Below, piece by piece: positions 9,105 to 30,329 of a stretch of DNA of 31,438 nucleotides. The position numbers were made by a program, and so were the translations under genes. Under the pieces are notes generated by a model. The model saw only the letters and a list, made by a program, of their open reading frames with translations. It was not told where the DNA came from and did no database searches. This DNA comes from a virus. Each line of letters opens with the position of its first letter. Positions within the stretch are counted from its first letter, which is position 1. The stretch is from positions 1 to 31,438 of the IMG/VR virus record IMGVR_UViG_3300045999_001639; one strand, written 5' to 3'.

Positions 9105-9136
9105 TAACTAGCACTTTATTTTAAGGAGAATAAACA

Positions 9137-9508: not shown

Positions 9509-10356
<848 letters not shown>

Positions 10357-15492: not shown

Positions 15493-15514
15493 ACTACAAA
15501 TGGAGGAATAGATT

Positions 15515-16908: not shown

Positions 16909-17081
16909 GCCACACAATAGAAGAACGCATAGAAACTTTTGCTGAAACCTTAAACAAGCGTTTTGGGTTTAAGAAAAAAGAAGCCAAAGCAATTGCCAAA
17001 GAAGCAATGGAACGGCTTGATAGATATGTAAATACACAAGAAATAATGATTAAAAGAGTTATGGAGAACCGCAAAAAATGA
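16905..17081 (+). CDS. Small basic helical protein
   Basis: The 58-residue product begins at ATG 16905, overlapping the previous stop, and its TGA overlaps the next ATG. It is highly charged and helical (RFGFKKKEAKAIAKEAMERLDRY) with a net positive charge. Tight coupling to the nuclease gene that follows makes it a candidate accessory or DNA-binding subunit, without direct evidence. Confidence 0.55.
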   Translation: MSHTIEERIETFAETLNKRFGFKKKEAKAIAKEAMERLDRYVNTQEIMIKRVMENRKK

Positions 17082-17746
17082 TTGACTTACATAGCGTAGT
17101 AACCAAATCGCTTACGGCTTATGACGGTTCCCGTGACAGGTCACAGCAGGTAGAAATTGGGCCTAGCAGTATTGGCGGTTGTTCTCGCCGTGTATGGCAT
17201 GACTTAAAACGCACACCAAAGGTTAATGAAACTGAGAAGTTAGCGGCAATCCTTGGAACTTTTATTCATGCTGGCATGGAAGAAGCAATTAAGCGTGAGG
17301 ACCCATTTGGTGACAATTACCTGATTGAAATTGAAGTGTCGCATGGAGATTTGAAAGGCCATTGTGACCTTTTTGTAAAAGATGAAGGCCTAGTTGTGGA
17401 TTGGAAAAGCATTAAAAAATCTGGCCTGCGTTACTTTGGGTCAGAACAACAGCGTTATCAAATACATGTTTATGGCTGGCTTTTAGAAAAAAACGGCTAT
17501 GAAGTAAAAGAGGTTTCTCTTGTTGGAATTCCCCGTGATGGCAAGATGGAAGAAATTAAAATTTTTCGTGAACCTTATGACCGCGCACTTGCTGAAGAAG
17601 GTTTGGCGTGGCTAGAAAACATAAAGCAACTTGTTGAAAACAATTCTCCTGCTCCAGCGCCAGAGAAGTTTGCAAAATTTTGTGCAGACTATTGCCCATA
17701 CTTTGACAGGACAGGAGAAGTAGGTTGCCCAAGTATGACGAAATAG
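17078..17746 (+). CDS. Cas4/RecB-like PD-(D/E)XK exonuclease with Fe-S cysteines
   Basis: The 222-residue protein has the nuclease core GHCDLF (His95, Asp97), VVDWKS (Asp108, Lys110) and a downstream QQRYQIHVYGWLL, that is, RecB-motif geometry H-x-D / D-x-K / Q-x-x-x-Y. Cys35 in SSIGGCSRRVW and Cys202, Cys206, Cys217 at the C-terminus form the four-cysteine pattern that holds a 4Fe-4S cluster in Cas4 and AddB. It would process DNA ends for recombination with the annealing protein at 15515. No cas genes or arrays are present, so a CRISPR role is unlikely. Confidence 0.83.
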   Translation: MIDLHSVVTKSLTAYDGSRDRSQQVEIGPSSIGGCSRRVWHDLKRTPKVNETEKLAAILGTFIHAGMEEAIKREDPFGDNYLIEIEVSHGDLKGHCDLFVKDEGLVVDWKSIKKSGLRYFGSEQQRYQIHVYGWLLEKNGYEVKEVSLVGIPRDGKMEEIKIFREPYDRALAEEGLAWLENIKQLVENNSPAPAPEKFAKFCADYCPYFDRTGEVGCPSMTK

Positions 17747-18081
17747 ATTGGGACCAGGCTGAATGTAGAGCGCTTGCAATTCCTACTGATTTATTTTATT
17801 CAGTAGAGGAAGAACGCTCTATCATGCAGTATGACTACATAAATTCATTACGGTCTATTTGCACTGCATGTCCGTTATGGAAAGACTGCCTGACATACGC
17901 TTTTGAACATGAGGATTACGGTGTATGGGGTGGACTTACAGGAGTTGAACGCGTATCTATGCAAAATTATTACAAGTATCCCAACCAGCGTTTACGCGCT
18001 CTAAAAAGCATGAAGGAATTTGGAATTACTTATGTAGAGATAAAGGAGTGCATTGATGGAGCCAATCAGACAGGTTTATAG
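17725..18081 (+). CDS. WhiB-family iron-sulphur transcription regulator
   Basis: Starting at TTG 17725 behind GGAGAAGTAGG, the product is 118 residues. Cys14, Cys46, Cys49 and Cys55 give C-x31-C-x2-C-x5-C, the WhiB iron-sulphur ligand set, followed by GVWGG at 66-70, the family turn that contacts the primary sigma factor. WhiB proteins are specific to Actinobacteria and their phages; phage copies can block or redirect host WhiB-sigma promoters. The basic C-terminus (PNQRLRALKSMKEFG) is a plausible DNA-contact tail. It overlaps the nuclease gene by 22 bases. Confidence 0.93.
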   Translation: MPKYDEIDWDQAECRALAIPTDLFYSVEEERSIMQYDYINSLRSICTACPLWKDCLTYAFEHEDYGVWGGLTGVERVSMQNYYKYPNQRLRALKSMKEFGITYVEIKECIDGANQTGL

Positions 18082-18514
18082 CGATAACCGCCGTGAACAC
18101 ATCATGGCTAATCATCTTTGTCAGATTTTGCCGTGGAAGTTATATGCCACGCCAAAGTTTTATTTTACTGATTTTCATATTCAACGCGTGTATGACAACG
18201 GGCGTGAGAATTACATAGGTGATTTAGAAATTAAATGGCTGAATAGTTCTAGTCAGTATCCCGCCATTTTTCCATACAATAAATTACAGCAAATGCTTAT
18301 TTCGCCACCATATACAGATAACCCTGAGTCCTATAACAGGATTTGTTTTAGGTTCTCAGATGGTCTTATGATGGTTCCAGCAAAAGCGCTTGCACACTTA
18401 GAACCAGTTTTGCATACGCGCAAAGATACAAATGAAACAGATTTTGTAATTTTTGTAAATGTTGCTGACTTTCAAAATTATTTTAGGAACATTGTTGTAA
18501 ACCAGGAGGCATAA
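18056..18514 (+). CDS. Hypothetical early phage protein
   Basis: ATG 18056 is chosen over TTG 18053 because AAAGGAG lies eight bases upstream; the product has 152 residues. It is mixed alpha/beta with several aromatic strands (YATPKFYFTDFHIQRVYDNG, YIGDLEIKWLN, CFRFSDGLMMVPAKALAHL, DFVIFVNVADF). No recognised motif. It begins inside the end of the WhiB gene and precedes the replication initiator, so it belongs to the same early transcript. Confidence 0.65.
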   Translation: MEPIRQVYSDNRREHIMANHLCQILPWKLYATPKFYFTDFHIQRVYDNGRENYIGDLEIKWLNSSSQYPAIFPYNKLQQMLISPPYTDNPESYNRICFRFSDGLMMVPAKALAHLEPVLHTRKDTNETDFVIFVNVADFQNYFRNIVVNQEA

Positions 18515-19327
18515 ATGAGCATCATAAGAAGCCCAAGATTAGAAAGTAATTTTTCCGTTATCTCAAATTCCGTCATTAGAGATAACCGCCTAAGTTATCG
18601 GGCGCGTGGAGTTCTTCTAGAGATACTTTCACGCCCTGATAATTGGCGCGTTTCAGGTGACTCATTGGCCCGTTCTGGCAAAGAAGGCCGTGATGCAATT
18701 TTGACTGCGTTAAAAGAATTACGGGATTGCGGCTACATACGCACTGTTGTTGAGCGCCTACCAAACGGAACTTTTGAAACCAAGAACTTTGTTTTTGATA
18801 CACCACAAGATGTAGTGCCGAACCCTGGAAATCCCACTACGGTTAGTGTTGCAGAACCGAACCCTGGAAAACCGAACCCTGGAAAACCGAAGTCGGATAA
18901 TCAGGGTTCTTTAGAAGAACTATCTAAGAAGAACTTAGATATAAACCAGTTTGATGAATTTTGGAAAATTTATCCTTTGAAGGTTGCAAAGCAAGCGGCA
19001 ATGAAAGCCTATGAAAAAGCATTGGCACACGCTTCACCAGAGATAATCATTAAAGGCGCTCAGGCCTATGCCACAGACGCGAACAGGGTTCCTGCCTATA
19101 CAGCCCACCCTGCTACTTGGTTAAACGCTCACAGGTGGCTTGATGACGCTTTACCTGCAAGAGAAAAAACTGTTGAAGAAAAGAAGTTAGAAGAATTACG
19201 GTTGTCCCGTGAAAAAGCAGAACGCGAGCGCTTAGAAACAGAACGCTGGAAACAAGAATTAGAGCAAGCCCGCCGTAATGCCGCGCCTATGCCAGAAACA
19301 TTACGGTCTTTATTAAAGAACATGTGA
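18515..19327 (+). CDS. Replication initiator/replisome organiser (winged-helix)
   Basis: The 270-residue protein starts at ATG 18515 after ACCAGGAGGCATAA. Residues 15-95 form a winged-helix domain (LSYRARGVLLEILSRPDNWRVSGDSLARSGKEGRDAILTALKELRDCGYI). Residues 105-125 are a Pro/Gly linker with NPGNP and NPGKPNPGKP repeats. Residues 143-212 (FDEFWKIYP, KAYEKAL, HPATWLNAHRWLD) are the usual C-terminal block of phage replication proteins, followed by a charged helix. It would bind the origin and load the host helicase. Repeats in the linker DNA look like origin iterons. Confidence 0.8.
   Translation: MSIIRSPRLESNFSVISNSVIRDNRLSYRARGVLLEILSRPDNWRVSGDSLARSGKEGRDAILTALKELRDCGYIRTVVERLPNGTFETKNFVFDTPQDVVPNPGNPTTVSVAEPNPGKPNPGKPKSDNQGSLEELSKKNLDINQFDEFWKIYPLKVAKQAAMKAYEKALAHASPEIIIKGAQAYATDANRVPAYTAHPATWLNAHRWLDDALPAREKTVEEKKLEELRLSREKAERERLETERWKQELEQARRNAAPMPETLRSLLKNM
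18818..18909 (+). repeat. Iteron-like repeats inside the initiator gene, candidate replication origin
   Basis: CCGAACCCTGGAAA occurs at 18818-18831, 18857-18870 and 18872-18885, the last two in a 15-base tandem. An inverted copy of its core (CAGGGTTC) is at 18902-18909, with another at 19084-19091. An A+T-rich stretch follows. Lambda-like phages have their origin as iterons within the initiator gene, between its DNA-binding and C-terminal domains, just as here. Confidence 0.55.
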
Positions 19328-19349
19328 GCCACGCATCAATTATGAATAA

Positions 19350-19386
19350 CAGTTACACTAATCCGTAATCATTATCCGTAAGGAGT
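19350..19386 (+). promoter_or_regulatory. CCGTAAT-containing leader before 19391
   Basis: ATCCGTAATCATTATCCGTAAGGAG contains ATCCGTAAT (19361-19369), the element also found in the promoter units at 20007 and 20969. No clear -35 box. CCGTAAGGAG at 19376-19385 supplies the RBS for ATG 19391. Confidence 0.35.
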
Positions 19387-19390
19387 AAGA

Positions 19391-19582
19391 ATGGCTACTG
19401 TAACTTCAATACCAGCATCTAATGTTATTTGCGGTGACAATGTTGTAATTAACAACAACACTTACACTGTTAAATACATTGATGGTCCAGACAAAATTGG
19501 AACCTATGACTTAAATGTTATTGACCAATTTGGAAATCCTCATATTGAAATAGTGACAGGTTTAGTTACAATTTCTTTGTGA
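19391..19582 (+). CDS. Small hypothetical protein
   Basis: A 63-residue product with alternating beta strands (NVICGDNVVINNNTYTVKYIDG, YDLNVIDQFGNPHIEIVTGLVTI), resembling a small SH3-like or beta-barrel fold. It is preceded by AAGGAGTAAGA and its TGA overlaps the GTG of rusA, so it is coupled to that gene. Function unknown. Confidence 0.6.
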   Translation: MATVTSIPASNVICGDNVVINNNTYTVKYIDGPDKIGTYDLNVIDQFGNPHIEIVTGLVTISL

Positions 19583-19968
19583 TAAATTTTAATGTAGATG
19601 GGCAACCTGTTCCGCAAGGTTCAATGAAAGTAATCAACGGACATGTTATTCATTCACAAGGTTCAGCGCTCGCCGCATGGCGTTCTGCAATAGCGCTATC
19701 CGCAAAATTGGCTGGAGCCAAACCACATCTTGAACCAGTAGAAATTGAGATGGATTTTACGGTGGCCCGCCCAAAGACCGTGACCCGTCAGGAGCCAACG
19801 GTTCCTCCTGATTTGGACAAATTGGTGCGTGGGGTTCTAGATGCCCTGACCGCCATTGCCTACCGTGATGACGCTCAGGTGACCCGTATAACGGCTTCTA
19901 AGGCCTATGGGGACACGCCTGGCGTGAGCGTGAGCGTAGGAGCCAGATTGCCTGAAAACCTGGCCTGA
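19579..19968 (+). CDS. rusA: RusA-family Holliday junction resolvase
   Basis: The 129-residue protein starts at GTG 19579. It has the RusA order: INFNVDGQPVPQGSM at the N-terminus, VARPKTVTRQEPTVPPDLDKLVRGVLDAL (Asp78, Asp80, Lys81, Asp88) and AYRDDAQV (Asp97, Asp98). These acidic residues are the metal ligands of the family, which cuts four-way DNA junctions. Length is within the usual 100-140 range. It would resolve recombination or replication intermediates before packaging. Confidence 0.87.
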   Translation: MINFNVDGQPVPQGSMKVINGHVIHSQGSALAAWRSAIALSAKLAGAKPHLEPVEIEMDFTVARPKTVTRQEPTVPPDLDKLVRGVLDALTAIAYRDDAQVTRITASKAYGDTPGVSVSVGARLPENLA

Positions 19969-20006
19969 ACCGTGTGACCAAGGACACATAAACATTTAAC
20001 ACAAAA

Positions 20007-20064
20007 GGTTCTTGTATTTGTGCCACATATCCGTAATACTTCTGCCATAGGAACAAGGAGTTCC
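20007..20064 (+). promoter_or_regulatory. Early promoter unit A with 5' hairpin
   Basis: GGTTCTTGTATTTGTGCCACATATCCGTAATACTT aligns with unit B at 20969 at most positions. TTGTAT (20012-20017) is a possible -35 box and TAATAC (20034-20039) a -10 at spacing 16. The hairpin GGAAC-AAGGA-GTTCC (20050-20064) lies 39 bases after CTTGTA, next to the expected transcript start. Confidence 0.62.
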
Positions 20065-20081
20065 AAGGAAGAAGGCGCAAG

Positions 20082-20441
20082 ATGAACACAGCAATTAACG
20101 GAACAGTTGGAACACATTTTAACCACACTACAAAAGCAGAATACCGTTGCTTTGAAACAGATAATTTGTTTGGTGAGAAATACCAAGCAAAACAAAACAA
20201 TACATTTGGACACACATTTTTATCTTGTGTGTTTTGTGGTCGCGACACATCAAAGCAAGGCAAATCAAGCGGCGTAATGGTTGGCGCAGGTGGCGCACTT
20301 ATTGTTCACCCTGAAGATTATGAAATTGCAACTGATGGCGGTGCAATGGGCTGGTTCCCAGTTGGTTCAGAATGTATCAAGTCAGTGCCAGCAGAATTCC
20401 GCATAGCCAATATTTATGATGACAAAGTGAATGGGGTGTGA
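20082..20441 (+). CDS. Hypothetical early protein with CxxC motif
   Basis: The 119-residue protein starts at ATG 20082, first gene after promoter unit A. It has SCVFCGRDTSKQGKSSGVMVGAGGALIVHPED and MGWFPVGSECIKSVP. The single C-x-x-C with a later Cys could bind a metal. The phrase GxEC....P with PVGSEC is common in phage early proteins of this kind. Its first 13 bases (ATGAACACAGCAA) are identical to those of the gene behind unit B. Confidence 0.62.
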   Translation: MNTAINGTVGTHFNHTTKAEYRCFETDNLFGEKYQAKQNNTFGHTFLSCVFCGRDTSKQGKSSGVMVGAGGALIVHPEDYEIATDGGAMGWFPVGSECIKSVPAEFRIANIYDDKVNGV

Positions 20442-20447
20442 TTAAAA

Positions 20448-20615
20448 ATGATTACTTACAAAGATAAAAACGGACAAACAAAATATTGGAAAACACAAGG
20501 CGGCGCTTGGAATTTTGCTAATAAATTGAATGAAGATTTAACAGATGGTATGTGGACATTTGAAAACGAATATCAAAAAGGTTTTTACCTTGAATTCAAG
20601 AAAGACGGTAACTAA
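20448..20615 (+). CDS. Small hypothetical protein
   Basis: A 55-residue product, basic and aromatic (ITYKDKNGQTKYWKTQGGAWNFANKLNEDL, MWTFENEYQKGFYLEFKK). No recognised motif. Clean start ATG 20448; the preceding gene ends at 20441. Codon use is like that of its neighbours. Confidence 0.55.
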   Translation: MITYKDKNGQTKYWKTQGGAWNFANKLNEDLTDGMWTFENEYQKGFYLEFKKDGN

Positions 20616-20617
20616 TT

Positions 20618-20758
20618 ATGGAGATGTGTGACCAATGCGGCAACAACGCTTACCTTTCTGTCACCTGGGGCAAATACCAGGACTCAGAAGGTAAGGCTAA
20701 ATTTTGGCGGGCGTTGCTTTGCGCCGATTGCAAGAAAGAGGTCCTGGCCCATGCGTGA
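20618..20758 (+). CDS. Small zinc-ribbon protein
   Basis: A 46-residue product beginning MEMCDQCGNNAYLSV and ending LLCADCKKEVLAHA. The two C-x-x-C pairs separated by 30 residues form a zinc-ribbon. Its last eight bases overlap the start of the next gene. Probably a nucleic acid or protein-binding peptide. Confidence 0.6.
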   Translation: MEMCDQCGNNAYLSVTWGKYQDSEGKAKFWRALLCADCKKEVLAHA

Positions 20759-20939
20759 GCGCACCTACATCTTCTATCCAGCGCCAGGAGGCGGCAAATG
20801 GCATACCGTGGACAGGATTACAGGCCAGGCCACCTGCCACAACGCCCTAATGGACACTCAGGCTGACCCAATCCATGTCAGCCCGTTCCAGACCGATTTC
20901 CACCCGCTTCTATGCCGCCGTTGCCTGGGCAAAAAGTGA
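20751..20939 (+). CDS. Small Cys-containing hypothetical protein
   Basis: ATG 20751 (ATGCGTGA overlap with the preceding stop) is the likely start rather than GTG 20628, which lies in the preceding gene. The 62-residue product includes CHNALMDTQADPIHV and ends LLCRRCLGKK. Base composition is more G+C-rich than its surroundings (20600-20940), a hint of separate origin. Confidence 0.58.
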   Translation: MRERTYIFYPAPGGGKWHTVDRITGQATCHNALMDTQADPIHVSPFQTDFHPLLCRRCLGKK

Positions 20940-20968
20940 CCCAACACACACCCTTAAATAGCACAAAT

Positions 20969-21027
20969 GGTGCTTGTAATTGTTCCAAAAATCCGTAATA
21001 CTTATCCCAACCAAAGGGCGCAGGCCC
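20969..21027 (+). promoter_or_regulatory. Early promoter unit B with 5' hairpin
   Basis: GGTGCTTGTAATTGTTCCAAAAATCCGTAATACTTATCC parallels unit A. TTGTAA (20974-20979) and TAATAC (20996-21001) lie 16 apart. The hairpin GGGC-GCAG-GCCC (21016-21027) starts 43 bases after CTTGTA. An RBS, CCAGGAGGCAACAA, and ATG 21048 follow. Confidence 0.62.
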
Positions 21028-21047
21028 ACTAGACCAGGAGGCAACAA

Positions 21048-21350
21048 ATGAACACAGCAACAGTAACAACAAAAGCAAACGCAACTGTAATTAGTAAACT
21101 TCTTAAAGCACAAGGTTTTCGCCGTAGCACATCAGCAACTACAAAAATTCGCGGATACCACATTGTTTCAGAAGGTTTTGAAGTAACACAATCTTTTAAC
21201 ACAGTAGTAGTTGAATATCATTACTCACGCACAAGTCAAGAATTTAACCAACTTGACCAAATTATGTTTTTTTTAGAAAACAAAGGTTATGCAGTTAAAG
21301 CATTTGGTGGTTCTTTTGTTAAGTTAGCGGTAACAAAGGTAGGTGCATAA
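21048..21350 (+). CDS. Hypothetical early protein
   Basis: A 100-residue protein, first gene after promoter unit B. It starts NTATVTTKANATVISKLLKAQGFRRSTSATTKIRGYHIVSEGFEV and continues with beta-strand sequence (VVVEYHYSRTSQEFNQLDQIMFFLENKGYAVKAFGG). The second half looks like a small alpha/beta domain. No family recognised. Confidence 0.62.
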   Translation: MNTATVTTKANATVISKLLKAQGFRRSTSATTKIRGYHIVSEGFEVTQSFNTVVVEYHYSRTSQEFNQLDQIMFFLENKGYAVKAFGGSFVKLAVTKVGA

Positions 21351-21352
21351 AC

Positions 21353-21499
21353 ATGGTTACAACAACACAAACAGTAAAGATTGATTTGAATGATGCCGCT
21401 TTTTTAGCGGCATTAGTCACACAATATATTGCAAAAGGAAATAACACAGACCATTTGCAAAAATTAGTTCAGCACCTAACACCAAAGGCAGGGTGCTAA
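21353..21499 (+). CDS. Small hypothetical protein
   Basis: A 48-residue product two bases after the preceding stop. Helical, with ITKYI-like sequence DAAFLAALVTQYIAKGNNTDHLQKLVQHL. Its coding sequence contains a perfect 7-bp inverted repeat with a T-run loop (21393-21413). Function unknown. Confidence 0.52.
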   Translation: MVTTTQTVKIDLNDAAFLAALVTQYIAKGNNTDHLQKLVQHLTPKAGC

Positions 21500-21501
21500 T
21501 A

Positions 21502-21798
21502 ATGGCAAGCAACATTATTAAAGACTTGCCAATAGATATTGGTGATGTCTATGAACTAATCAAGGAAGCGCTTACTGAAACAATTCAAAACATTGAGTTG
21601 TATGACATTGGTGATGATTGCAATTCCACTTTTGATACTGAAGAAGTTACGGTCAAATATAAAGACGGACAGTTTTTTGCAACCATAGCCTTGCAACGCA
21701 CTGAAGGTAAATTTGTAAGCAATGACGATATTGAAGAAGCGTTTATTGCGGCAATGGCTAATGAAAAAATGACAATAGATGTGGAGATACAGGCATGA
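21502..21798 (+). CDS. Hypothetical acidic early protein
   Basis: ATG 21502 is preferred to GTG 21493, which sits in the upstream gene; the product has 98 residues. It has a helical N-terminus (IGDVYELIKEALTETIQNIELYDIGDD) and a strand-rich middle (VTVKYKDGQFFATIALQR), then DDIEEAFIAAMANEKMTIDVEIQA. Strongly acidic overall. No motif recognised; could be a DNA mimic, without proof. Confidence 0.58.
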   Translation: MASNIIKDLPIDIGDVYELIKEALTETIQNIELYDIGDDCNSTFDTEEVTVKYKDGQFFATIALQRTEGKFVSNDDIEEAFIAAMANEKMTIDVEIQA

Positions 21799-21902
21799 AT
21801 TGTCCTATATGCAAAATAGATACAGCACCAACACAATTGCGCAAGGCTGGAATGTGTAAAGTTTGCGCAAAAAAACAACTAAAAAACATGGAGGCAAAAT
21901 AA
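21795..21902 (+). CDS. Very small zinc-ribbon protein
   Basis: A 35-residue product, MNCPICKIDT...GMCKVCAKKQLKNMEAK. Two C-x-x-C pairs separated by 14 residues make a compact zinc-ribbon. ATG overlaps the preceding TGA, and the stop overlaps the next ATG (TAATG), so three genes are coupled. Confidence 0.6.
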   Translation: MNCPICKIDTAPTQLRKAGMCKVCAKKQLKNMEAK

Positions 21903-22081
21903 TGCGGTTCAAAGTAGAAATGTTCATTGACAAGGAAGAATTTAATATTCCTATCAATAAATCTAAGTCAATGATTAACGCGCTACAGCGTGAGCAAATT
22001 CTAGAAATGGTTGAGCAAGCGCTACCTGGAGTTTGGGTAACCAAAGTCCGTAAGGTCCATGATGAACGGACATGTCAATGA
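21902..22081 (+). CDS. Small hypothetical protein
   Basis: ATG 21902 behind ATGGAGGCAAAATA gives 59 residues; the start at 21863 lies in the upstream gene. The sequence RFKVEMFIDKEEFNIPINKSKSMINALQREQILEMVEQALPGVWVTKVRKVHDE reads as beta-alpha-beta. No recognised family. Confidence 0.55.
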   Translation: MRFKVEMFIDKEEFNIPINKSKSMINALQREQILEMVEQALPGVWVTKVRKVHDERTCQ

Positions 22082-22227
22082 AACTTACAAAGCGTGGAAA
22101 ACGCGTAAGAGCAGTTTTAATCCTTGCGGCGGTTGTTGGTGGTTATTGGCTTCTTAACCACATTTGGTGGGTTGGTGACCACTACTGTTTTGGTGACATG
22201 GTTGAATGTTATTTTGGAGGCGAATAA
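22078..22227 (+). CDS. Small membrane protein
   Basis: A 49-residue product with a basic N-terminus (KLTKRGKRVRA), one span (VLILAAVVGGYWLL) and an aromatic C-terminus (NHIWWVGDHYCFGDMVECYFGGE). The ATGA and TAATG overlaps couple it to genes on either side. A membrane peptide next to a secreted protein gene suggests an envelope function. Confidence 0.55.
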   Translation: MKLTKRGKRVRAVLILAAVVGGYWLLNHIWWVGDHYCFGDMVECYFGGE

Positions 22228-22775
22228 TGAAAAAGATTATATTGGGAGTTGCTTTATCACTTATTTCAACACACGCTTGGGCTAATGACACAACAGCGCA
22301 AGGAGCATGGGTAAAGGTAGATGCCAACGGCAACGCTATAGGTGGAGCAATTGTCTGTTCTACAGATGTTTGCGGTGACAGCAATTCACCTTATGCAAAA
22401 GCAACGCTAGGTGCAGGTGAGCAATATGTTTTACAAGCCAAGGCTGACCCTGTAACTAACAATGTTGCAGGCATTGGCAACAACAATCCCAACACTCAGG
22501 TGCAAGTAAACATACCTACACAGGAATGGACAATTACACGGACAAATACAGTGACACCCGTAGAACCTGTAATTATTAACGGTCATCAAATAACTTCTTA
22601 CACTTTTGAAACAGTAGATAAATTTACTGCTGACACGGCTCCTTGGGTTTTTCCACCAGTTATTGATGTAGTAGCGCTTGAAACAACAACAGTTGTAAGC
22701 GCGTCAATTACATCAAAAACGCTAAATGCTAAAAAAATCAAATCAAAAACTAAAAAGAAGGCGGCAAAAAAATGA
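22227..22775 (+). CDS. Secreted phage protein with signal peptide
   Basis: ATG 22227 after GGAGGCGAATA is preferred over 22206. The 182-residue product begins with a signal peptide, KKIILGVALSLISTHAWA, with cleavage expected at AWA/ND. The mature N-terminal part (GAWVKVDANGNAIGGAIVCSTDVCGDSNSPYAKATLGAGEQYVLQAKAD) contains two cysteines that could form a disulphide. The C-terminus is Lys/Thr-rich and ends KSKTKKKAAKK. I recall similar proteins in aquatic phages but not their function. Confidence 0.65.
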   Translation: MKKIILGVALSLISTHAWANDTTAQGAWVKVDANGNAIGGAIVCSTDVCGDSNSPYAKATLGAGEQYVLQAKADPVTNNVAGIGNNNPNTQVQVNIPTQEWTITRTNTVTPVEPVIINGHQITSYTFETVDKFTADTAPWVFPPVIDVVALETTTVVSASITSKTLNAKKIKSKTKKKAAKK

Positions 22776-22957
22776 CAGACACAAATGTAGAAATGTTTTT
22801 ATTAGTCACAGGCAAGGCAATGATTAAAGCGGCTGAAAGCAATGACCCTGACATGCAACTTGATGTAATTAAAAACTTTAATAATGTTGCTCAAACTTGG
22901 GAGAACAAGGCTTTTAATGCGGCTTACAAAAACATGCTAGAAAGCAGGGAGTCATGA
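22772..22957 (+). CDS. Small hypothetical protein
   Basis: A 61-residue, helical product (VEMFLLVTGKAMIKAAESNDPDMQLDVIKNFNNVAQTWENKAFNAAYKNML). Start overlaps the previous stop. No motif recognised. Confidence 0.52.
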   Translation: MTDTNVEMFLLVTGKAMIKAAESNDPDMQLDVIKNFNNVAQTWENKAFNAAYKNMLESRES

Positions 22958-23172
22958 CACCAGGATTTAGCATGATGGGTTCTGGCATCTATTCCACAAC
23001 CGTAACTTTAGAAATTGTTTGCGCTGAGCAATGTAATGATTGTGCAGAAAATTACAGTTGCAAAGGGTTATGGGAAGAAGATTTTGAAACTGATGATTGG
23101 GGCAATGTTGAGCAAGAAGTGACATGCAAAGAATGTGAACACACCATAACCGTAAGAAGGGAAAGTGAATGA
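22954..23172 (+). CDS. Small Cys-rich zinc-finger-like protein
   Basis: A 72-residue product with CAEQCNDCAENYSC in the middle and EVTCKECEHTITVR near the end, six cysteines in all. Two knuckle-like pairs suggest metal binding. ATGA overlaps on both sides place it in the same translationally coupled string. Confidence 0.58.
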   Translation: MTPGFSMMGSGIYSTTVTLEIVCAEQCNDCAENYSCKGLWEEDFETDDWGNVEQEVTCKECEHTITVRRESE

Positions 23173-23375
23173 GTTATCAATTTATGTTACAAATTATTGA
23201 AGATGGTTCAATAGCCTTTTCTCAGCGTTATGACAACGCATTAGACGCGGTTAATGCTTACAACAAATGCGTTGATTACGGTAATTCACGCTTGTGGCGT
23301 GAAATTGTTTTACTAGAACCTAATGGCAAAGCCCACGCAAAAGTCTTTGAATACCCATTAGTAGGGGTAAACTAA
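23169..23375 (+). CDS. Small hypothetical protein
   Basis: A 68-residue alpha/beta product (QFMLQIIEDGSIAFSQRYDNALDAVNAYNKCVDYGNSRLWREIVLLEPNGKAHAKVF). Similar in shape to small phage proteins that adopt a ferredoxin-like fold, but unassigned. Start overlaps the previous stop. Confidence 0.55.
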   Translation: MSYQFMLQIIEDGSIAFSQRYDNALDAVNAYNKCVDYGNSRLWREIVLLEPNGKAHAKVFEYPLVGVN

Positions 23376-23410
23376 TCCTGGTCCAAAAACTACTCTTTAA
23401 GGGGGAACTC

Positions 23411-23503
23411 ATGGACAGCAATGTAAATAGATGTAATCAATGCGGCGGTTGGAAATACGGTGAAACCGCTTGTGGCTGTTGTGCCAAAGGAGCCAAAGGC
23501 TAA
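23411..23503 (+). CDS. Thirty-residue Cys-rich peptide
   Basis: MDSNVNRCNQCGGWKYGETACGCCAKGAKG contains C-x-x-C and C-x-CC. It starts behind TTTAAGGGGGAACTC, a strong ribosome site, so it is probably real despite its length. Its stop codon is immediately before the lytic transglycosylase open frame. Confidence 0.5.
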   Translation: MDSNVNRCNQCGGWKYGETACGCCAKGAKG

Positions 23504-23506
23504 AAC

Positions 23507-23944
23507 CTGAAGTTTTACCAACACGCTCTTTTAGTAGCCGTTTTTACGGTAGGGCTTGTTGCACTTCCACACGCTGAAGCGCAAGCGCCAGTAATGACGC
23601 AAGCGTTAAAAATTAAAGCAATGGCTCCTAAAGAATATGCGTTGCATTTAGTTAAACAGCAATGGAAAAACCATAAGCGTGAATTTGCCTGCCTGGAAAC
23701 GCTCTGGCACAAGGAAAGCGGCTGGAGGCCACACGCGGCTAATCCAACATCTACGGCATGGGGAATTCCTCAATTTCTCAATTCAACCTGGACAAATTAT
23801 GGTTATCCTGTAAGACCCAAAGACCCACAAATACAAGTAAAGGCTGGATTGCGTTACATCTATAAACGCTATTCAACTCCTTGCGGAGCGTGGGAATTTT
23901 GGAAAAAGAAGGCGGGACAGGACATGGTAGGCGGCTGGTATTGA
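23507..23944 (+). CDS. Secreted lytic transglycosylase, probable CTG start
   Basis: The frame is open back to 23504, and the only start before the catalytic domain that gives a leader is CTG 23507. That yields KFYQHALLVAVFTVGLVALPHAEAQA, a clear signal peptide, and a 145-residue protein. ATG 23594 would remove it and has no ribosome site, although AAAGGAG lies 13 bases before the CTG. The domain carries WHKESGWRP (catalytic Glu70), STAWGIPQFLNSTW and AGLRYIYKRYSTPCGAWEFW, the lysozyme-like SLT fold. It would cut peptidoglycan glycan strands outside the membrane during infection or release. Confidence 0.82.
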   Translation: MKFYQHALLVAVFTVGLVALPHAEAQAPVMTQALKIKAMAPKEYALHLVKQQWKNHKREFACLETLWHKESGWRPHAANPTSTAWGIPQFLNSTWTNYGYPVRPKDPQIQVKAGLRYIYKRYSTPCGAWEFWKKKAGQDMVGGWY

Positions 23945-24276
23945 TGGACAAAAAGGTTGTAGAGATTGTTCTCAACCGCGCTGGTGATTACTGCGAAACA
24001 TGCGGGTCACCAGCGCTACCTTCTATGGCCTTGCACCACCGTAAATTAAAATCACGCGGCGGCAAAGACACACCTGCAAACCTAATCAGGGTGCATCACG
24101 GTTGTCATAACTTACGCACTGATAGTATTCACCTCCAACCAGCAAGGGCTGAGTCAAAAGGCTGGATATGCCCAAGTTGGAGAGAACCAAATGAACACCC
24201 GTTTGTTAAACCAGATGGAACTATTGTTTTGTTACAAGATGATGGTTCTGAATTCACAATGATGGAAGGCGATTAA
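23944..24276 (+). CDS. HNH endonuclease
   Basis: Starting at ATG 23944, which overlaps the previous stop, the product has 110 residues. It has YCETCGSP (Cys17, Cys20), ALHHRKLKSRGG (His31/His32), Asn46 and RVHHGCHN (His51, Cys54, His55). This is the HNH metal-finger plus zinc-ligand set. Free-standing phage HNH proteins nick DNA and often assist terminase or act as homing enzymes. It lies in the early region well away from terminase, so its role is not clear. Confidence 0.82.
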   Translation: MDKKVVEIVLNRAGDYCETCGSPALPSMALHHRKLKSRGGKDTPANLIRVHHGCHNLRTDSIHLQPARAESKGWICPSWREPNEHPFVKPDGTIVLLQDDGSEFTMMEGD

Positions 24277-24642
24277 ATGAATATCACAGTAAAAGGCAAT
24301 GTAGGGCAAGAACCAGAATTAAAGTTTTCTAAATCAAATACTGCTTATGTAACATTTTCAATTGCTTACACACCACGCCAAAAGCAAGGTGACGCATGGG
24401 TTGATGGAGAAACTATGTGGTTCCGTGTTGTTCAGTTTGGCACAAAGGCTGAAGCAACAGTTGATTGCATTAAAAAAGGTGACTCTGTATTAGTTACAGG
24501 CGCATTAAAGCAATCCACATATACCGATAAAGAAGGCAAAGAAAAATCATCTATGGAAATTACTGCTGACCATATTGGGCTTGTGCCACGCACACAGAAG
24601 AATTACACTGCACCACAAACACAGGAGGAAGCACCATGGTAG
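24277..24642 (+). CDS. ssb: Single-stranded DNA-binding protein
   Basis: A 121-residue OB-fold protein starting next to the HNH gene: ITVKGNVGQEPELKFSKSNTAYVTFSIAYTP, WFRVVQFGTKAEATVDCIKKGDSVLVTGALKQ and EITADHIGLV. This is the bacterial SSB core without a long linker, ending in an acidic tip, QEEAPW, that resembles the partner-binding tail. It coats single-stranded DNA and would work with the annealing protein and replication initiator. Confidence 0.9.
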   Translation: MNITVKGNVGQEPELKFSKSNTAYVTFSIAYTPRQKQGDAWVDGETMWFRVVQFGTKAEATVDCIKKGDSVLVTGALKQSTYTDKEGKEKSSMEITADHIGLVPRTQKNYTAPQTQEEAPW

Positions 24643-24821
24643 AAGCAGGCTTAATTAGCGCTAAAGAAACAGCAGACATTTTAGGCATTAACATGAATAA
24701 CTTACGCCAGATACAACACCGCAAGACAATTGCATGGGTGGAAAAGTCAGGTCGCAATGTTTATTACAAGCGTGAAGATGTAGAAGCCTACAAAGCCAAA
24801 AGAGATGCCCGTATCAAATGA
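24636..24821 (+). CDS. MerR/excisionase-like HTH protein
   Basis: A 61-residue protein with LISAKETADILGINMNNLRQIQHRKTIAWVEKSGRNVYYKREDVEAYKAKR: a helix-turn-helix followed by a wing with YY-x-R-x-DVE-x-Y, typical of the HTH_17 excisionase/MerR-like group. Seven-base overlap with the ssb gene. No integrase is visible in this window, so a regulatory role is more likely than excision. Confidence 0.78.
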   Translation: MVEAGLISAKETADILGINMNNLRQIQHRKTIAWVEKSGRNVYYKREDVEAYKAKRDARIK

Positions 24822-24955
24822 ACAAAGAACTGATGGCAGGCAGATTTTGGGTGCATTACGGTTTTAGCAAACATCAATTTGGTCTAGGCATTGTTGTAAG
24901 CAAATGGCAATTAAACATTGACATTGGACCGTTTTGGTTTGGCTTAGAATGGTAA
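24818..24955 (+). CDS. Small hypothetical protein
   Basis: A 45-residue aromatic product, NKELMAGRFWVHYGFSKHQFGLGIVVSKWQLNIDIGPFWFGLEW. Coupled to the previous gene by an ATGA overlap. Strand-rich and probably a small beta-hairpin; similar short tail-end strings occur in other phage early regions. Confidence 0.5.
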   Translation: MNKELMAGRFWVHYGFSKHQFGLGIVVSKWQLNIDIGPFWFGLEW

Positions 24956-25113
24956 TTAGTGAGGACCCTGAAGTAGCCCTAGCGCTATCAATGTTTGGCG
25001 AAAGATTACGCGCAAAAGGAAAAGACAATCTTGCTTTCAAAATAGAAAACATTATTGAACTTGTGCGTGATGAAGTAGAAGCGGAATTAAAGCCAAAAGG
25101 CCGTAAGCAATAA
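24949..25113 (+). CDS. Small hypothetical helical protein
   Basis: A 54-residue product beginning with ATG 24949 within the end of the previous gene. Helical and charged (DPEVALALSMFGERLRAKGKDNLAFKIENIIELVRDEVEAEL), ending KPKGRKQ. No motif recognised. Confidence 0.5.
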   Translation: MVISEDPEVALALSMFGERLRAKGKDNLAFKIENIIELVRDEVEAELKPKGRKQ

Positions 25114-25125
25114 TAGTATGTAGCC

Positions 25126-25329
25126 ATGACAGTCCTATTAACAGAGGAAGTAACTCTGGAAGATATAGATGAAGCGCTGAAGCATGTCTATAACATGTTA
25201 AAGACTGACATCTACGGTGACCGCATGGATTGGCGCAAAAAAGAAATGTTGCAAACAAGCCTAGATGATTTGTTAGATGCTAGGTTCAATATGGTGAAGA
25301 ACGGCAATCCTTTTCCTGAAGATGAATAA
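25126..25329 (+). CDS. Small hypothetical acidic protein
   Basis: A 67-residue helical product (LTEEVTLEDIDEALKHVYNMLKTDIYGDRMDWRKKEMLQTSLDDLLDARFNMVK). No ribosome site is visible; TAGTAT (25114-25119) lies six bases before the ATG, so a leaderless transcript is possible. Confidence 0.58.
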   Translation: MTVLLTEEVTLEDIDEALKHVYNMLKTDIYGDRMDWRKKEMLQTSLDDLLDARFNMVKNGNPFPEDE

Positions 25330-25471
25330 CAGCAAAGAAGGCGGCTTTTGCGACATCTGCAAGCACCATGTATTAAAGAAAGATTACGAAAGCCACGCCG
25401 CCAAAAACCATTCAGGAACTTTATTTGAGAAGAAGTTCTATGAGGCTATAAGCATTACTGAATTAAGGTAG
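25322..25471 (+). CDS. Small C2H2-like protein
   Basis: A 49-residue product overlapping the previous stop. It contains FCDICKHHVLKKDYESHAAKNH: C-x2-C plus a later H-x4-H, a zinc-finger-like ligand set. It ends the early coupled gene string. Confidence 0.5.
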   Translation: MNNSKEGGFCDICKHHVLKKDYESHAAKNHSGTLFEKKFYEAISITELR

Positions 25472-25540
25472 TTGCAATAGACCGTAATAAGTTATAGATT
25501 TTGCTCACTGGTAGATGAAACATAAGTAATCTACTGAGTG
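25472..25540 (+). promoter_or_regulatory. Intergenic leader with CCGTAAT element and hairpin
   Basis: TTGCAA (25472-25477), CCGTAAT (25482-25488) and TATAGAT (25493-25499) are followed by a hairpin pairing GTAGAT (25511-25516) with ATCTAC (25529-25534), extended by CACT (25506-25509) with AGTG (25537-25540). This repeats the promoter-then-hairpin layout of the early units, but no gene follows directly and a terminator lies just beyond. It could express a short RNA or be a decayed unit. Confidence 0.35.
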
Positions 25541-25550
25541 CTGGACAACG

Positions 25551-25580
25551 CCTCTACATACTGCATGATGTAGGGGTTTT
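25551..25580 (+). terminator. Intrinsic terminator before the packaging genes
   Basis: CCTCTACAT (25551-25559) pairs with ATGTAGGGG (25568-25576), with one G-T pair and an eight-base loop, followed by TTTT. It closes the early transcript ahead of the terminase promoter. Confidence 0.78.
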
Positions 25581-25608
25581 GTTCTTTCCACATAATGTTA
25601 AACTCATT

Positions 25609-25643
25609 TTGCAAGATAATGTTTCCTCATTTATAGTGAACAC
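25609..25643 (+). promoter_or_regulatory. Promoter for a leaderless terminase transcript
   Basis: TTGCAA (25609-25614), 17 bases, then TATAGT (25632-25637). The ATG of the small terminase lies six bases after the -10 box, where transcription should start, and no Shine-Dalgarno site is present. Confidence 0.65.
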
Positions 25644-26141
25644 ATGGCAAGAAAAACACCTGAACCAGCGCAGATTGAAAAAGAGAACGCGGTATTAGCG
25701 TTACGCACTCAATCGCTAACCTGGCGCACTATCGCTGAGCAAACAGGTTATTCATCAGGCTCAGGAGCGCTAAAGGCTTATATGCGAGCCATTAAGCGCC
25801 AACAGAAAGAACCCACTGAAGCCGCTTTGTATATGGAGTTAGAGCGCTTAGATGTTTTGCAAGAGGTGTATTGGGAACCAGCCATACAAGGAAACATGCG
25901 AGCGGGTGAGTTTGTTCTACGCATTATGGATAGGCGGGCTAAATTCTTGGGCCTAGATGCGCCAACCAAGATACAAGCAGAAGTGGTGAACTATGACAGT
26001 GGAACAGGAAGCATTGACGCAGAAGTTGATAGAATTGCCAGACTCATTGATACATTTGAGTCAGGAAGTTCTGACGCAACCCTCATTGAACGCGAGAGTG
26101 CAGGCGAGCAGATATTTATGGAAGAACCGCCTAGCCCGTAA
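25644..26141 (+). CDS. terS: Terminase small subunit
   Basis: A 165-residue protein. The N-terminus is a HTH-like domain (ENAVLALRTQSLTWRTIAEQTGYSSGSGALKAYMRAIKR), followed by a helical oligomerisation region (LYMELERLDVLQEVYWEPAIQGNMRAGEFVLRIMDRRAKFLGLDAP) and an acidic tail. This matches small terminases, which recognise the packaging site. It overlaps the large subunit by 149 bases, which is long. ATG 25644 is six bases after a -10 box. Confidence 0.82.
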   Translation: MARKTPEPAQIEKENAVLALRTQSLTWRTIAEQTGYSSGSGALKAYMRAIKRQQKEPTEAALYMELERLDVLQEVYWEPAIQGNMRAGEFVLRIMDRRAKFLGLDAPTKIQAEVVNYDSGTGSIDAEVDRIARLIDTFESGSSDATLIERESAGEQIFMEEPPSP

Positions 26142-27420
26142 AGAACAGTTAGCGCCAGAAGGCGATTGGCACATTTGGCTGTATATGGCAGGCCGTGGTG
26201 CAGGCAAGACCAGGACAGCCGCAGAATGGCTTGCTTGGGAGGCTATAAGCCAACCTGAAACCCGTTGGGCCATTGTCGCACCTACATTCTCAGATGCTAG
26301 AGATACATGCGCTGAAGGCGAGTCAGGCGTTATTTCAGTGCTACGCAGATACCACATGCTTGAACACTGGAACCGTTCTATGGGTGAAATCCTTCTGGTA
26401 AACGGTTCAAAGATAAAACTCTTTTCCGCAGACCAACCAGAGCGTTTCCGTGGACCGCAACACCATGGAGCCTGGTGTGATGAATTAGGTGCATATAGAT
26501 ATTCAGATGCTTGGGACCAATTGCAGTTTGGATTACGCCTTGGAGATAAACCACGCGTTGTTGTTACAACCACACCAAGACCAACACCGCTTATCCGTAT
26601 GCTGGCGGGCCGCAAAGACGGCTCTATTGTCATCACACGCGGTTCAACATTTGATAACGCTAAAAACCTTGCGCCTAGCGCTCTTTTAGAATTACAGGCC
26701 CGCTACAACAACACCAGGCTTGGAAGGCAAGAACTTTATGGAGAAATTCTTGATGATGTTGAAGGCGCGTTATGGACCAAGGGAGTTATTGACCGTAACC
26801 GTGTGCAGAAAGCACCAGCAATGTCACGCGTCATTGTTTCCATTGACCCTGCCGTAACAAACACCAAGGACTCAGATGAAACAGGAATTATTGTTGCTGG
26901 TTGTGACACAGGCGGTAATGGCTATGTGATTGCTGACTACTCATTTAAGGGAAGCCCGCTTGAATGGGCTACAAAGGCCGTAGAAGTCTTTGACAAACAT
27001 AAGGCTGACTCAATCTTGGTAGAAGTAAACCAAGGTGGCGATATGGTCAGTGCAGTTCTTAAACAAGTGCGTAACTCTTTACCAGTTAGAGAAGTGCGAG
27101 CGCATGTGGGTAAGAAACTTAGAGCAGAACCAGTAGCGGCAATGTATGAACAAGGGCGTGTGCATCATGTTGGTGAGTTTGCAATGCTAGAGGACCAAAT
27201 GACAGTGTGGACACCACAAGACCCTGATAGCCCTGACCGTATTGATGCCATGGTGCAAGCGTTTTCTGATTTACTAGGAACATCAAGCGTCAGTAATTAT
27301 TTCAATGCAATTGCTAACATTTGCCCAAATTGCGGATTGCCTATGCCTAAATCAATGTCACATTGTTCAAAGTGTGGAACCGCTATAATCATTCCCACAC
27401 AGGTTGTTGAAGGAGTCTAA
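25993..27420 (+). CDS. terL: Terminase large subunit with C-terminal zinc ribbon
   Basis: The 475-residue protein has Walker A GRGAGKT at 67-73, a Walker B-type region ending WCDE (Asp163, Glu164), and the nuclease motif VSIDPAV with Asp285, followed by ILVEVNQGGD and DRIDAMVQAFSDLL. These are the ATPase and RNase H-like nuclease halves that package DNA. Past the usual end lies NICPNCGLPMPKSMSHCSKCG (Cys444, 447, 458, 461), a zinc ribbon not found in typical large terminases. The start inside terS lacks an obvious ribosome site, so a later start within the overlap cannot be excluded. Confidence 0.93.
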   Translation: MTVEQEALTQKLIELPDSLIHLSQEVLTQPSLNARVQASRYLWKNRLARKEQLAPEGDWHIWLYMAGRGAGKTRTAAEWLAWEAISQPETRWAIVAPTFSDARDTCAEGESGVISVLRRYHMLEHWNRSMGEILLVNGSKIKLFSADQPERFRGPQHHGAWCDELGAYRYSDAWDQLQFGLRLGDKPRVVVTTTPRPTPLIRMLAGRKDGSIVITRGSTFDNAKNLAPSALLELQARYNNTRLGRQELYGEILDDVEGALWTKGVIDRNRVQKAPAMSRVIVSIDPAVTNTKDSDETGIIVAGCDTGGNGYVIADYSFKGSPLEWATKAVEVFDKHKADSILVEVNQGGDMVSAVLKQVRNSLPVREVRAHVGKKLRAEPVAAMYEQGRVHHVGEFAMLEDQMTVWTPQDPDSPDRIDAMVQAFSDLLGTSSVSNYFNAIANICPNCGLPMPKSMSHCSKCGTAIIIPTQVVEGV

Positions 27421-27780
27421 ATGGCAGTCGCATACAATGTAGTAATTGACCAAGGTGCAGACTGGTTCTTAAATGTGAATTATGACAATCCCAACGGAAC
27501 GCCTGTAAATCTAACTGGTTATTCAGCCGCGCTACAACTGCGTTCATATCCTGACGCTCCAACTGCTGTTCTGTCATTAACATCTGCTGTAAACGGCGGT
27601 ATTACAATCACTGGCGCTACAGGCTTAGTTGCAATGCAAGCAACGGCTACACAAACAAGAGCAATTGATGAAGGCACTTATTATTATGATTTAGAAATAA
27701 CATCACCTGCTTCACCTACAGCAATTGTTACCCGTTTAATCCAAGGACAGGCAGTAGTTAGTGCTGAGGTGACACGCTAA
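27421..27780 (+). CDS. Beta-rich tail fibre/baseplate protein
   Basis: A 119-residue protein immediately after terL. It has IDQGADWFLNVNYDNPNGTPVNLTGYSAALQLRSYPDAPTAVLSL, an immunoglobulin-like start seen in phage BppU-type fibre-attachment proteins, then a second beta segment. It is coupled by TAATGG to the next gene. Probably anchors or decorates fibres. Confidence 0.62.
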   Translation: MAVAYNVVIDQGADWFLNVNYDNPNGTPVNLTGYSAALQLRSYPDAPTAVLSLTSAVNGGITITGATGLVAMQATATQTRAIDEGTYYYDLEITSPASPTAIVTRLIQGQAVVSAEVTR

Positions 27781-28097
27781 TGGCTGATGAGATTATTGTT
27801 GTAGAACCAATTATTCCCGTAATCAATGTCATCAATGAAACGCCAACAATCACCGTATCTGCACCAGGACCGCAAGGACCATCTGGTGAATTCACATCAT
27901 CTGACATTTTCTACACTCATACTCAGGCTGTATCCGCATCAGTGTGGACCATCAACCACAATCTAAACGGTTATCCAACAGCAGTAGTTTTGGACTCAGC
28001 AGGAACTATGTGTGAAGGCACTTTTAGTTACCCAACCGTTAATCAAATGATTATTACTTTTAGTTCAGCCTTTACAGGAACGGCCTACATAATCTAA
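27780..28097 (+). CDS. Tail fibre protein with collagen-like turn
   Basis: A 105-residue product: strand-rich N-terminus (IIVVEPIIPVINVINETPTITV), a short collagen-like GPQGPSG, then SVWTINHNLNGYPTAVVLDSAG...YPTVNQMIITFSSAFTGTAYII. The last domain matches the C-terminal domain of the fibre gene at 28798 (YTITHNLN...). These modules are usual in trimeric fibres. Confidence 0.68.
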   Translation: MADEIIVVEPIIPVINVINETPTITVSAPGPQGPSGEFTSSDIFYTHTQAVSASVWTINHNLNGYPTAVVLDSAGTMCEGTFSYPTVNQMIITFSSAFTGTAYII

Positions 28098-28351
28098 TGA
28101 GCAGATTAGCCTTAACACCTACCAATGTTCCTGTTAGTGCAACGGACATCAATACGCCAACACTTAGAACTGGCGATATGTATTACAACACCACAACAGG
28201 TTTAATGATTTATGACGGAACAGCATGGGTAGCCGTTTCTACATCTACGCCAACCAATCTTGATGCAGGCGTATTTGATAGCATTGCTCCATACCAGGGT
28301 GGAGAACCAACCACTACTGCTACCCAAACATTTAACGGGGGAACTCCATGA
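28097..28351 (+). CDS. Small fibre-associated protein
   Basis: An 84-residue product with TLRTGDMYYNTTTGLMIYDGTAWVAV, the GD-x-YYNT...YDG-x-AW fibre N-terminal motif also present at 28798 and 11490. The C-terminal 30 residues are Thr-rich. Overlaps on both sides are TAATG/ATGA, so five fibre genes are translated as one unit. Confidence 0.65.
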   Translation: MSRLALTPTNVPVSATDINTPTLRTGDMYYNTTTGLMIYDGTAWVAVSTSTPTNLDAGVFDSIAPYQGGEPTTTATQTFNGGTP

Positions 28352-28794
28352 GCGTAGTAACACAGATACAAGTAAGACGCGGCACTGCGGCACAATGGAC
28401 TTCTGCCAACCCAACTCTTGCGGCTGGCGAGATTGGTTTTGAAACTGACACAGGTTTAATGAAGTGCGGTAACGGTTCAACTGTTTGGACATCACTTGGT
28501 TACATTGGTGCAGGTGACATCACTGGAGTTACAGCAGGAACAGGACTTTCAGGCGGTGGAGCATCAGGAGCAGTAACGCTTTCAATTAACACAGCAGTCA
28601 CAGCAGACCTATCAACTGCACAAACTTTTACAAACAAAACAATCTCAGGAGCGTCAAATACGCTTAGCAATATTGGCAATTCAAGTCTTACTAATTCTGC
28701 CATCACAATTAACGGCTCAGCCGTATCATTGGGTGGTTCAGTAACAATTGTTGCCCAAACTTTTGCTCCTTCACTTATGTTAGGTGGTATGTAA
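28348..28794 (+). CDS. Tail fibre protein with tropism-determinant-like N-terminus
   Basis: The 148-residue product begins TQIQVRRGTAAQWTSANPTLAAGEIGFETDTGLMKCGNGSTVW. This is the N-terminal domain of major tropism determinant-type and related fibre proteins. It continues with GDITGVTAGTGLSGGGASGAVTLSI and a Ser/Asn/Thr-rich shaft ending LMLGGM. The same GDIT block occurs at 5474. There is no reverse transcriptase or template repeat, so not a diversity-generating element. Confidence 0.72.
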   Translation: MSVVTQIQVRRGTAAQWTSANPTLAAGEIGFETDTGLMKCGNGSTVWTSLGYIGAGDITGVTAGTGLSGGGASGAVTLSINTAVTADLSTAQTFTNKTISGASNTLSNIGNSSLTNSAITINGSAVSLGGSVTIVAQTFAPSLMLGGM

Positions 28795-28797
28795 TAA

Positions 28798-30291: not shown

Positions 30292-30329
30292 CTAACGCCT
30301 GAACCACAAGGGGCAAAAAGGAGATACAC

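Follow-up and report, generated by a model that had tools for sequence, protein, structure and literature searches.

We analyzed a complete IMG/VR virus record (IMGVR_UViG_3300045999_001639; 31,438 bases, classed as linear), referred to below as the window, and within it a pair of adjacent genes at positions 23411 and 23507. The first is a short open reading frame (ORF) for a microprotein of 30 residues with paired cysteines, and the second encodes an SLT transglycosylase that is predicted to be secreted and to start at a non-canonical codon. The microprotein gene belongs to a run of small cysteine-pair genes, which a preliminary description made from the letters alone had regarded as typical candidates for host takeover or anti-defence. 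In the case of 23411, the most conserved of these genes, a role in cis is indicated first: its translation would be coupled to that of a secreted wall enzyme whose start is non-canonical, an arrangement kept even where the cysteine motif is absent. The elements of the gene pair and its surroundings are:

23399..23405, plus strand: AAGGGGG, a Shine-Dalgarno-like site of the microprotein, recognised from the sequence
23411..23503, plus strand: cysteine-pair microprotein of 30 residues (leader ORF), with an ATG start and the stop codon TAA at 23501-23503
23495..23499, plus strand: AAAGG in the tail of the microprotein gene, Shine-Dalgarno-like for the enzyme, 7 nt before the CTG and not present in every relative
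23507..23509, plus strand: CTG, at which the transglycosylase is proposed to start, following the stop codon of the microprotein by 3 nt
23507..23944, plus strand: secreted SLT transglycosylase of 145 residues, predicted from PF01464 (E = 4.8e-7), NF052397 (E = 1e-21) and the ratio of nonsynonymous to synonymous divergence (dN/dS) in its frame
23507..23587, plus strand: signal peptide, judged by eye (LKFYQHALLVAVFTVGLVALPHAEAQA, then P), under purifying selection in frame
23944..24276, plus strand: HNH endonuclease gene, next downstream, with a canonical start; used as a control gene

Relatives were taken from scans comprising the best 80 of 597, 594, 263 and 575 relatives. Among 121 unique enzyme loci, the microprotein was recognised in 109 by a first pattern and in nine more by eye. 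The 23411-type peptides of 118 loci represent 85 distinct sequences, and their usual pattern is C-x(1-2)-C-G-x-W-x-Y-G-x3-C-x2-C. In 24 of these peptides the second cysteine is replaced by Y, F or L, and all 24 carry a histidine four residues further on, a residue found there in none of the 61 others (58 listed peptides, one mis-parsed Cys-Cys form and two with histidine as the first cysteine); the swap may have had only a few origins on the tree. Four conserved metal ligands (C4, C3H or HC3) are present in all 85 distinct peptides, a count that does not extend to the 16 short-ORF loci lacking the motif that are described below. Such a complementary exchange of cysteine and histidine is what a metal site predicts, and 23411 probably encodes a zinc peptide. 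The AlphaFold2 model has a pLDDT (predicted local distance difference test) of only 71, with two short strands and a helix, and a comparison of the 23411 sequence with annotated phages gave no credible match (best E = 3). In the 47 CTG-type loci, dN/dS was 0.42 in the microprotein frame and 1.19 in the comparison frame.

The product of the downstream gene scored 29.8 bits against the SLT profile PF01464 (curated cut-off 21.3) and 77.2 against the aggregation-promoting-factor C-terminal domain NF052397 (cut-off 40). E71 and S72 are invariant in all 16 aligned sequences and belong to an E-S motif that presumably holds the SLT catalytic glutamate. A standard gene call would start at the ATG at 23594, and the signal peptide would be lost. 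The frame is open upstream of this ATG to the microprotein stop, and the 29 additional residues resemble a signal peptide. In the 47 frame-0 CTG-type loci, dN/dS in the signal-peptide frame is 0.37, compared with 1.04 and 2.20 in the other frames, and 0.12 at the mature end; the corresponding values for 22 other frame-0 loci are 0.52 versus 0.76 and 1.27. These values make it very likely that the region is translated. The enzyme may serve in lysis, wall loosening or exclusion of other phages, and we favour a role in accessory lysis because a separate CHAP-domain gene at 12424 is likely to be the endolysin.

To define the Met position in the relatives, the signal-peptide core was used as an anchor, and the codon seven residues ahead of the first leucine of the core was read. 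For 135 distinct short-ORF loci, six of which were re-anchored by hand (L127, L132, L150, L159, L162 and L354), this codon is CTG in 53, ATA in 45, GTT in 26, ATT in 7, TTT in 2 and ACG in 2, and in no case ATG, GTG or TTG. A smaller set, in which 120 of 121 loci could be anchored, gave CTG 55, ATA 27, GTT 23, ATT 7, TTT 2 and ACG 1, while five further rows (L159, L162, L127, L125 and L164) were either wrongly anchored or different from the others. Each of the observed codons is a single base away from ATG, GTG or TTG. On a tree of 118 loci, built from the catalytic part, about 23 codon changes were counted (24 less one mis-anchored row), none of them to a canonical start, together with seven changes of frame. 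An alignment suggested ATT starts for the HNH gene as well, but in nearly every case a canonical codon (ATG, GTG or TTG) lies a few codons away, and the gene was therefore used as a control. For neighbouring genes, a canonical codon is absent from the region of −8 to +6 codons in only 10 of 805 distinct starts, compared with 91 of 99 for the enzyme.

In 126 of the 135 loci the distance from the end of the short-ORF stop to the Met position is −3, +4, −2 or +1 nt, the negative values standing for a stop that ends ahead of the codon and the positive ones for a stop that reaches into or beyond it. Leader and enzyme are in frame 0 in 73, in frame −1 in 35 and in frame +1 in 3 of 111 loci. In the frame-0 loci the codon before the Met position varies, and the codon following it is AAG in 59 of 69. 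Synonymous divergence around the junction is halved, at 0.34-0.36 compared with 0.70.

The non-canonical start accompanies the short ORF rather than its cysteines. In homologues without a recognised short ORF, a canonical start is present in the n-region in 13 of 13 cases (ATG 10, GTG 2, TTG 1); this class was defined by a motif search and by reading by eye those rows that lacked a canonical start, and the upstream genes of the 13 were examined in part. By contrast, all 16 homologues that have a short ORF lacking the cysteine motif, recognised by eye and exemplified by forms of 21 and 20 codons, keep an odd start (ATA 12, CTG 2, ACG 2). On the tree, leaders lacking the motif require four changes, at least two of which lie on well-supported branches. 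One of these loci, L036, lies among zinc-type relatives (the nearest being L046 and L055), which suggests that the cysteine motif was lost there. In a tabulation of 158 distinct loci, the microprotein occurs with no canonical codon nearby in 100 and with one in 19, and loci lacking the microprotein have such a codon in 24 cases and lack it in 15; a further 24 loci were left out because they had no signal peptide by the rule applied, while L036 and L354 were moved to the class of short ORFs that lack the cysteine motif. Ten loci of another group (L333-L342) were dropped from the tree, and L125, L155 and L164 were set aside in the tree of 118 loci; by eye, the first two have the microprotein and an ATA codon and the third has ATG. 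In L355, a leader-type relative, an ATG that is a possible canonical start lies eight codons ahead of the signal-peptide core.

The sequences show that the two ORFs are adjacent and under coding selection, that no canonical codon stands at the Met position, that metal ligands have been exchanged, and that the odd start occurs together with the short ORF. The reading that we favour, with moderate confidence, is that 23411 is a leader gene with two jobs, directing termination-reinitiation onto a scarce enzyme in cis and providing a metal-binding peptide in trans. Ribosomes would start at the ATG at 23411 behind a strong Shine-Dalgarno site and stop at the TAA at 23501, and a small share of them would reinitiate at the CTG 3 nt further on, resulting in a low dose of the secreted transglycosylase. 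The CTG would be too weak for good use alone, and a weak start would keep the wall-cutting enzyme scarce. Because the enzyme would carry its own export signal and would not be restrained by a holin, a low, fixed dose would be a sensible design. In trans, the peptide would fold round a metal ion, probably zinc, and would have its own protein function in most lineages. Termination-reinitiation fits the observations because a well-initiated leader ends beside a poor start, the relative frame is of little consequence, and the nucleotides at the junction are conserved. It is conceivable, if rather doubtful, that post-termination ribosomes are nearly indifferent to the codon, so that GUU, UUU and AUA would be natural starts owing to delivery by the leader; canonical codons would then have been kept away over some 23 changes, which would fix enzyme output as a fraction of leader output. 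The zinc peptide itself may help by binding the ribosome.

Several observations weigh against a leader that delivers ribosomes to a weak start. The tree has few columns, and swapping of modules between the signal peptide and the catalytic domain, as in L023, may have inflated the number of codon changes. A canonical codon does occur within −8 to +6 codons of the enzyme start in 8 of 99 loci. Among 119 loci of the zinc type, 19 have one between −18 and +1 codons relative to the signal-peptide core, though never at the Met position, and an upstream ATG could serve as the start in L122, L123, L126, L144 and L355. The Shine-Dalgarno-like site is absent from some CTG loci. Natural non-AUG starts are described as differing from AUG by one base in PMC6200909; GTT and TTT differ from ATG by two, contrary to this rule. 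CUG accounts for 0.024% of the ORF starts in 69 bacterial genomes, according to PMC9845219. A hairpin at the junction, AGGC UAAA GCCU by eye in most CTG loci, was rejected as an element of the system, as compensatory changes were seen in 0 of 4 pairs and the hairpin is broken in several loci; likewise, folding at the junction is near the level of shuffled sequences (mean z = −0.44).

The strongest counter-argument is that the middle base of the Met-position codon is T in 133 of 135 loci, giving L, I, V or F: elongation through a hydrophobic residue would explain the codon as well. It could be part of a fusion, made by readthrough or frameshifting, in which the zinc domain is the cytoplasmic head of a signal-anchor enzyme and the hydrophobic codon is merely elongated. 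Readthrough was our first idea, drawn from the frame-0 loci, where one stop codon separates the two genes in 73 of 111 cases, and it was dropped as the principal explanation after the −1 and +1 loci were found. All three relative frames occur, and thus no single recoding event would serve, readthrough explaining frame 0 only. Moreover, TAA, TAG and TGA are all in use, no slippery site was seen by eye in those −1 loci that were read, and leucine at the Met position is always encoded by CTG, although CTG makes up just 67 of the 629 leucine codons elsewhere in the gene in CTG-type loci. We regard a fusion as improbable. A somewhat better case, if still an unlikely one, can be made for a microprotein that acts purely in trans as a zinc regulator in host takeover or anti-defence, with the odd start reflecting selection for low output of the enzyme and unrelated to the peptide. 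The coding selection on the peptide and its swapped ligands agree with such a regulator, as do the ordinary starts of the genes that follow the other cysteine peptides of the operon. However, the odd start is seen with an abutting short ORF and persists after loss of the cysteine motif, and where no short ORF is recognised the starts are canonical in 13 of 13 homologues.

It is far less probable still that the enzyme truly begins at a downstream ATG or GTG (23594 in the window), with a cytoplasmic or virion-borne product and the signal peptide as a relic. Standard codons are available for such a start, including a GTG within the signal peptide of many relatives, and related SLT domains occur in tape measure proteins. 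Yet purifying selection acts in frame on the region of the signal peptide, whose hydrophobic core aligns throughout, and many relatives have no ATG before residues 35-48, or none at all.

The leader and enzyme pair can be compared with several known systems. For the tailed HF1-like haloviruses, PMC7230728 describes numerous small CxxC proteins, which are unevenly distributed and do not occur in the half of the genome with the virion genes. These viruses resemble the phage studied here in having many small CxxC microproteins in a tailed virus; they differ in being archaeal viruses, and the available part of that account reports no coupling to a gene with an odd start (the comparison is one of descriptions, not of sequences). 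The lysis gene L of phage MS2 is expressed through about 5% reinitiation and has a repressing hairpin, according to PMC6071253. In both cases an envelope-damaging product would be made at a low level from ribosomes finishing the gene before, with the upstream stop within a few nucleotides of the downstream start (here in 126 of 135 loci). In MS2, however, it is the coat gene that lies upstream and an amurin that is made. Here a dedicated leader, a short ORF of some 10-40 codons, precedes the gene for an SLT enzyme predicted to be secreted; that gene never has a canonical start, and neither covariation nor folding energy supports a masking hairpin. As such a hairpin is part of the MS2 system, the proposal is that the pair works like MS2 L, and not that it is a member of that class. 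The catalytic domain is shared with phage SLT/aggregation-promoting-factor proteins (PF01464, NF052397), and in the homologues from Streptomyces camviruses the N-terminus is likewise hydrophobic; the two camvirus copies examined differ in that GTG starts are annotated and the preceding annotated gene does not encode a cysteine microprotein. The infC gene for IF3, with its AUU start, is another case of a conserved non-canonical start that holds expression down; it differs in having one codon, self-regulation by IF3 and no dedicated leader ORF.

Termination-reinitiation itself is already known, and the new point would be the pair of a leader and an enzyme gene with an odd start, an arrangement of which no account was found in the open-access literature. 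We know of no natural precedent for GUU and UUU starts. Should the favoured reading hold, a secreted wall enzyme would be made from starts that gene finders disallow in a large group of phages, which are probably freshwater ones. Gene calls that begin at the first ATG or GTG would then deprive such enzymes of the signal peptide and hence of their cell address, and ORFs of 30 codons that gene callers skip could be control elements. The relatives, well over a hundred of them, would also form a natural series that covers all three frames and both the presence and the absence of the zinc motif, from which to ask what a reinitiating bacterial ribosome needs.

The preliminary description had listed seven cysteine-pair ORFs (20082, 20618, 20751, 21795, 22954, 23411 and 25322), and all of them are present at these positions. 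The six others are:

20082..20441, plus strand: protein of 119 residues; Cys 49, 52 and 98 invariant, three of four
20618..20758, plus strand: double-CxxC peptide of 46 residues; two near-identical homologues only
20751..20939, plus strand: peptide of 62 residues; three invariant cysteines
21795..21902, plus strand: double-CxxC peptide of 35 residues; four invariant cysteines
22954..23172, plus strand: peptide of 72 residues; six invariant cysteines and one invariant histidine
25322..25471, plus strand: CxxC...H...H peptide of 49 residues; two invariant cysteines in four homologues, phrog_10717 at E = 5e-4

Most of the seven were said to start within the preceding stop. This holds for 20751, 21795, 22954 and 25322, which overlap the gene before them, but not for 20618, 23411 and 20082, which are preceded by gaps of 2, 35 and 113 nt. 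Between 19391 and 25471, successive genes overlap or abut at 15 of 24 junctions. A membrane-like product at 22072 and a secreted-like one at 22227, both judged by sequence alone, are present as well. CxxC genes make up 8 of 25 in the cysteine-rich stretch and 2 of the 28 other genes called in the window; when residues were shuffled among the 25 proteins 2000 times, the mean number was 0.9 and the highest 5, and with the composition of the whole window the corresponding values were 0.16 and 3.

Homologues were found for every one of the seven ORFs. Counting distinct sequences that cover at least 60% of the query among 228 fetched loci, there are 8 for 20082, 2 for 20618 (both from near-identical phages, which makes for weak support), 11 for 20751, 6 for 21795, 30 for 22954, 81 for 23411 and 5 for 25322. 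Pooled dN/dS is 0.29 for 20082, 0.05 for 20618, 0.32 for 21795, 0.18 for 22954, 0.15 for 23411 and 0.19 for 25322; for 20751 it could not be computed because synonymous sites are saturated (pS 0.74, pN 0.21). The neighbouring ORF 21048, which is not of the cysteine type, makes a weak case (dN/dS 0.75, one homologue). Among the homologues of six of the ORFs (20618 apart), 20 of 24 cysteines are invariant, the exceptions being a single one of the four cysteines in 20082 and three of the five in 23411 (conserved at 93%, 72% and 12%), and the mean conservation of the other residues is 53-68% across families (98% in the two 20618 homologues). This conservation, the absence of which the preliminary description had named as a refutation, supports the view that the peptides are real, translated, of a metal-binding type and too short for routine gene calling. 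The preliminary description was thus correct on the peptides themselves, but in assigning them a role it claimed more than the evidence allows.

The cysteine peptides other than 23411 may still be host-directed. For the cysteine peptides as a whole there was no match to Pfam or PHROGs families with a host-takeover or anti-defence function, while PADLOC and known anti-defence families were not searched. The 20082 product (CxxCGR...GWFPVGSEC) has no match in Pfam or PHROGs. The 22954 product carries a TDDWGN motif, and its predicted model (pLDDT 69) gave no significant match in the PDB, so no family was assigned. Most of the patchily distributed peptides (20082, 20618, 20751 and 21795) lie in the stretch from RusA to 21902, the length of which varies from 478 to 2895 bases over 76 loci; the 23411 gene is widely conserved, and so are the genes for the enzyme, HNH and SSB downstream of it. 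Two long intergenic gaps, preceding the genes 20082 and 21048, contain a direct repeat of 74% identity (19974-20047 and 20936-21009). Both copies include ATCCGTAATACTT exactly, the only two exact copies in the window, and a similar site is found at 19361. The repeat resembles a promoter or a cassette boundary but is not conserved in relatives. A role of ATCCGTAATACTT as a module boundary was rejected, as TCCGTAA in relatives is no more frequent than its reverse complement (30 versus 39 in 76 regions).

The window also has profile matches to WhiB (PF02467), RusA, SSB, an HTH_17 protein, a Cas4-like nuclease and a CHAP-domain protein, in addition to the HNH gene and a terminase large subunit, whose relatives reach 96% identity (L003). 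The terminase scan yielded one match of 81% on an Actinomycetota contig from a metagenome-assembled genome (L233), in which the locus begins within the enzyme gene. The WhiB gene and this match point to an actinobacterial host, and the phage probably infects freshwater actinobacteria. A whiB-like gene is described in every member of one family of Nanopelagicales phages in PMC10202952. At the DNA level, comparison of positions 15000-31438 with annotated phages gave a single piece of 103 bases, and Rfam had no match anywhere in the window. The terminase large subunit (25993-27420) has a zinc-ribbon-like tail (CPNCG...CSKCG), and that of L233 is similar. A terminator-like hairpin at 25550-25585 separates the operon of small genes from the terminase genes. 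The distance from the homologue of 25126 to the small terminase gene is about 3-5 kb in L022, L026, L027, L036, L046, L055 and L064, compared with about 0.3 kb in the window. Finally, three long glycine-rich proteins are encoded among the tail genes at 6524-10356, in highly repetitive DNA.

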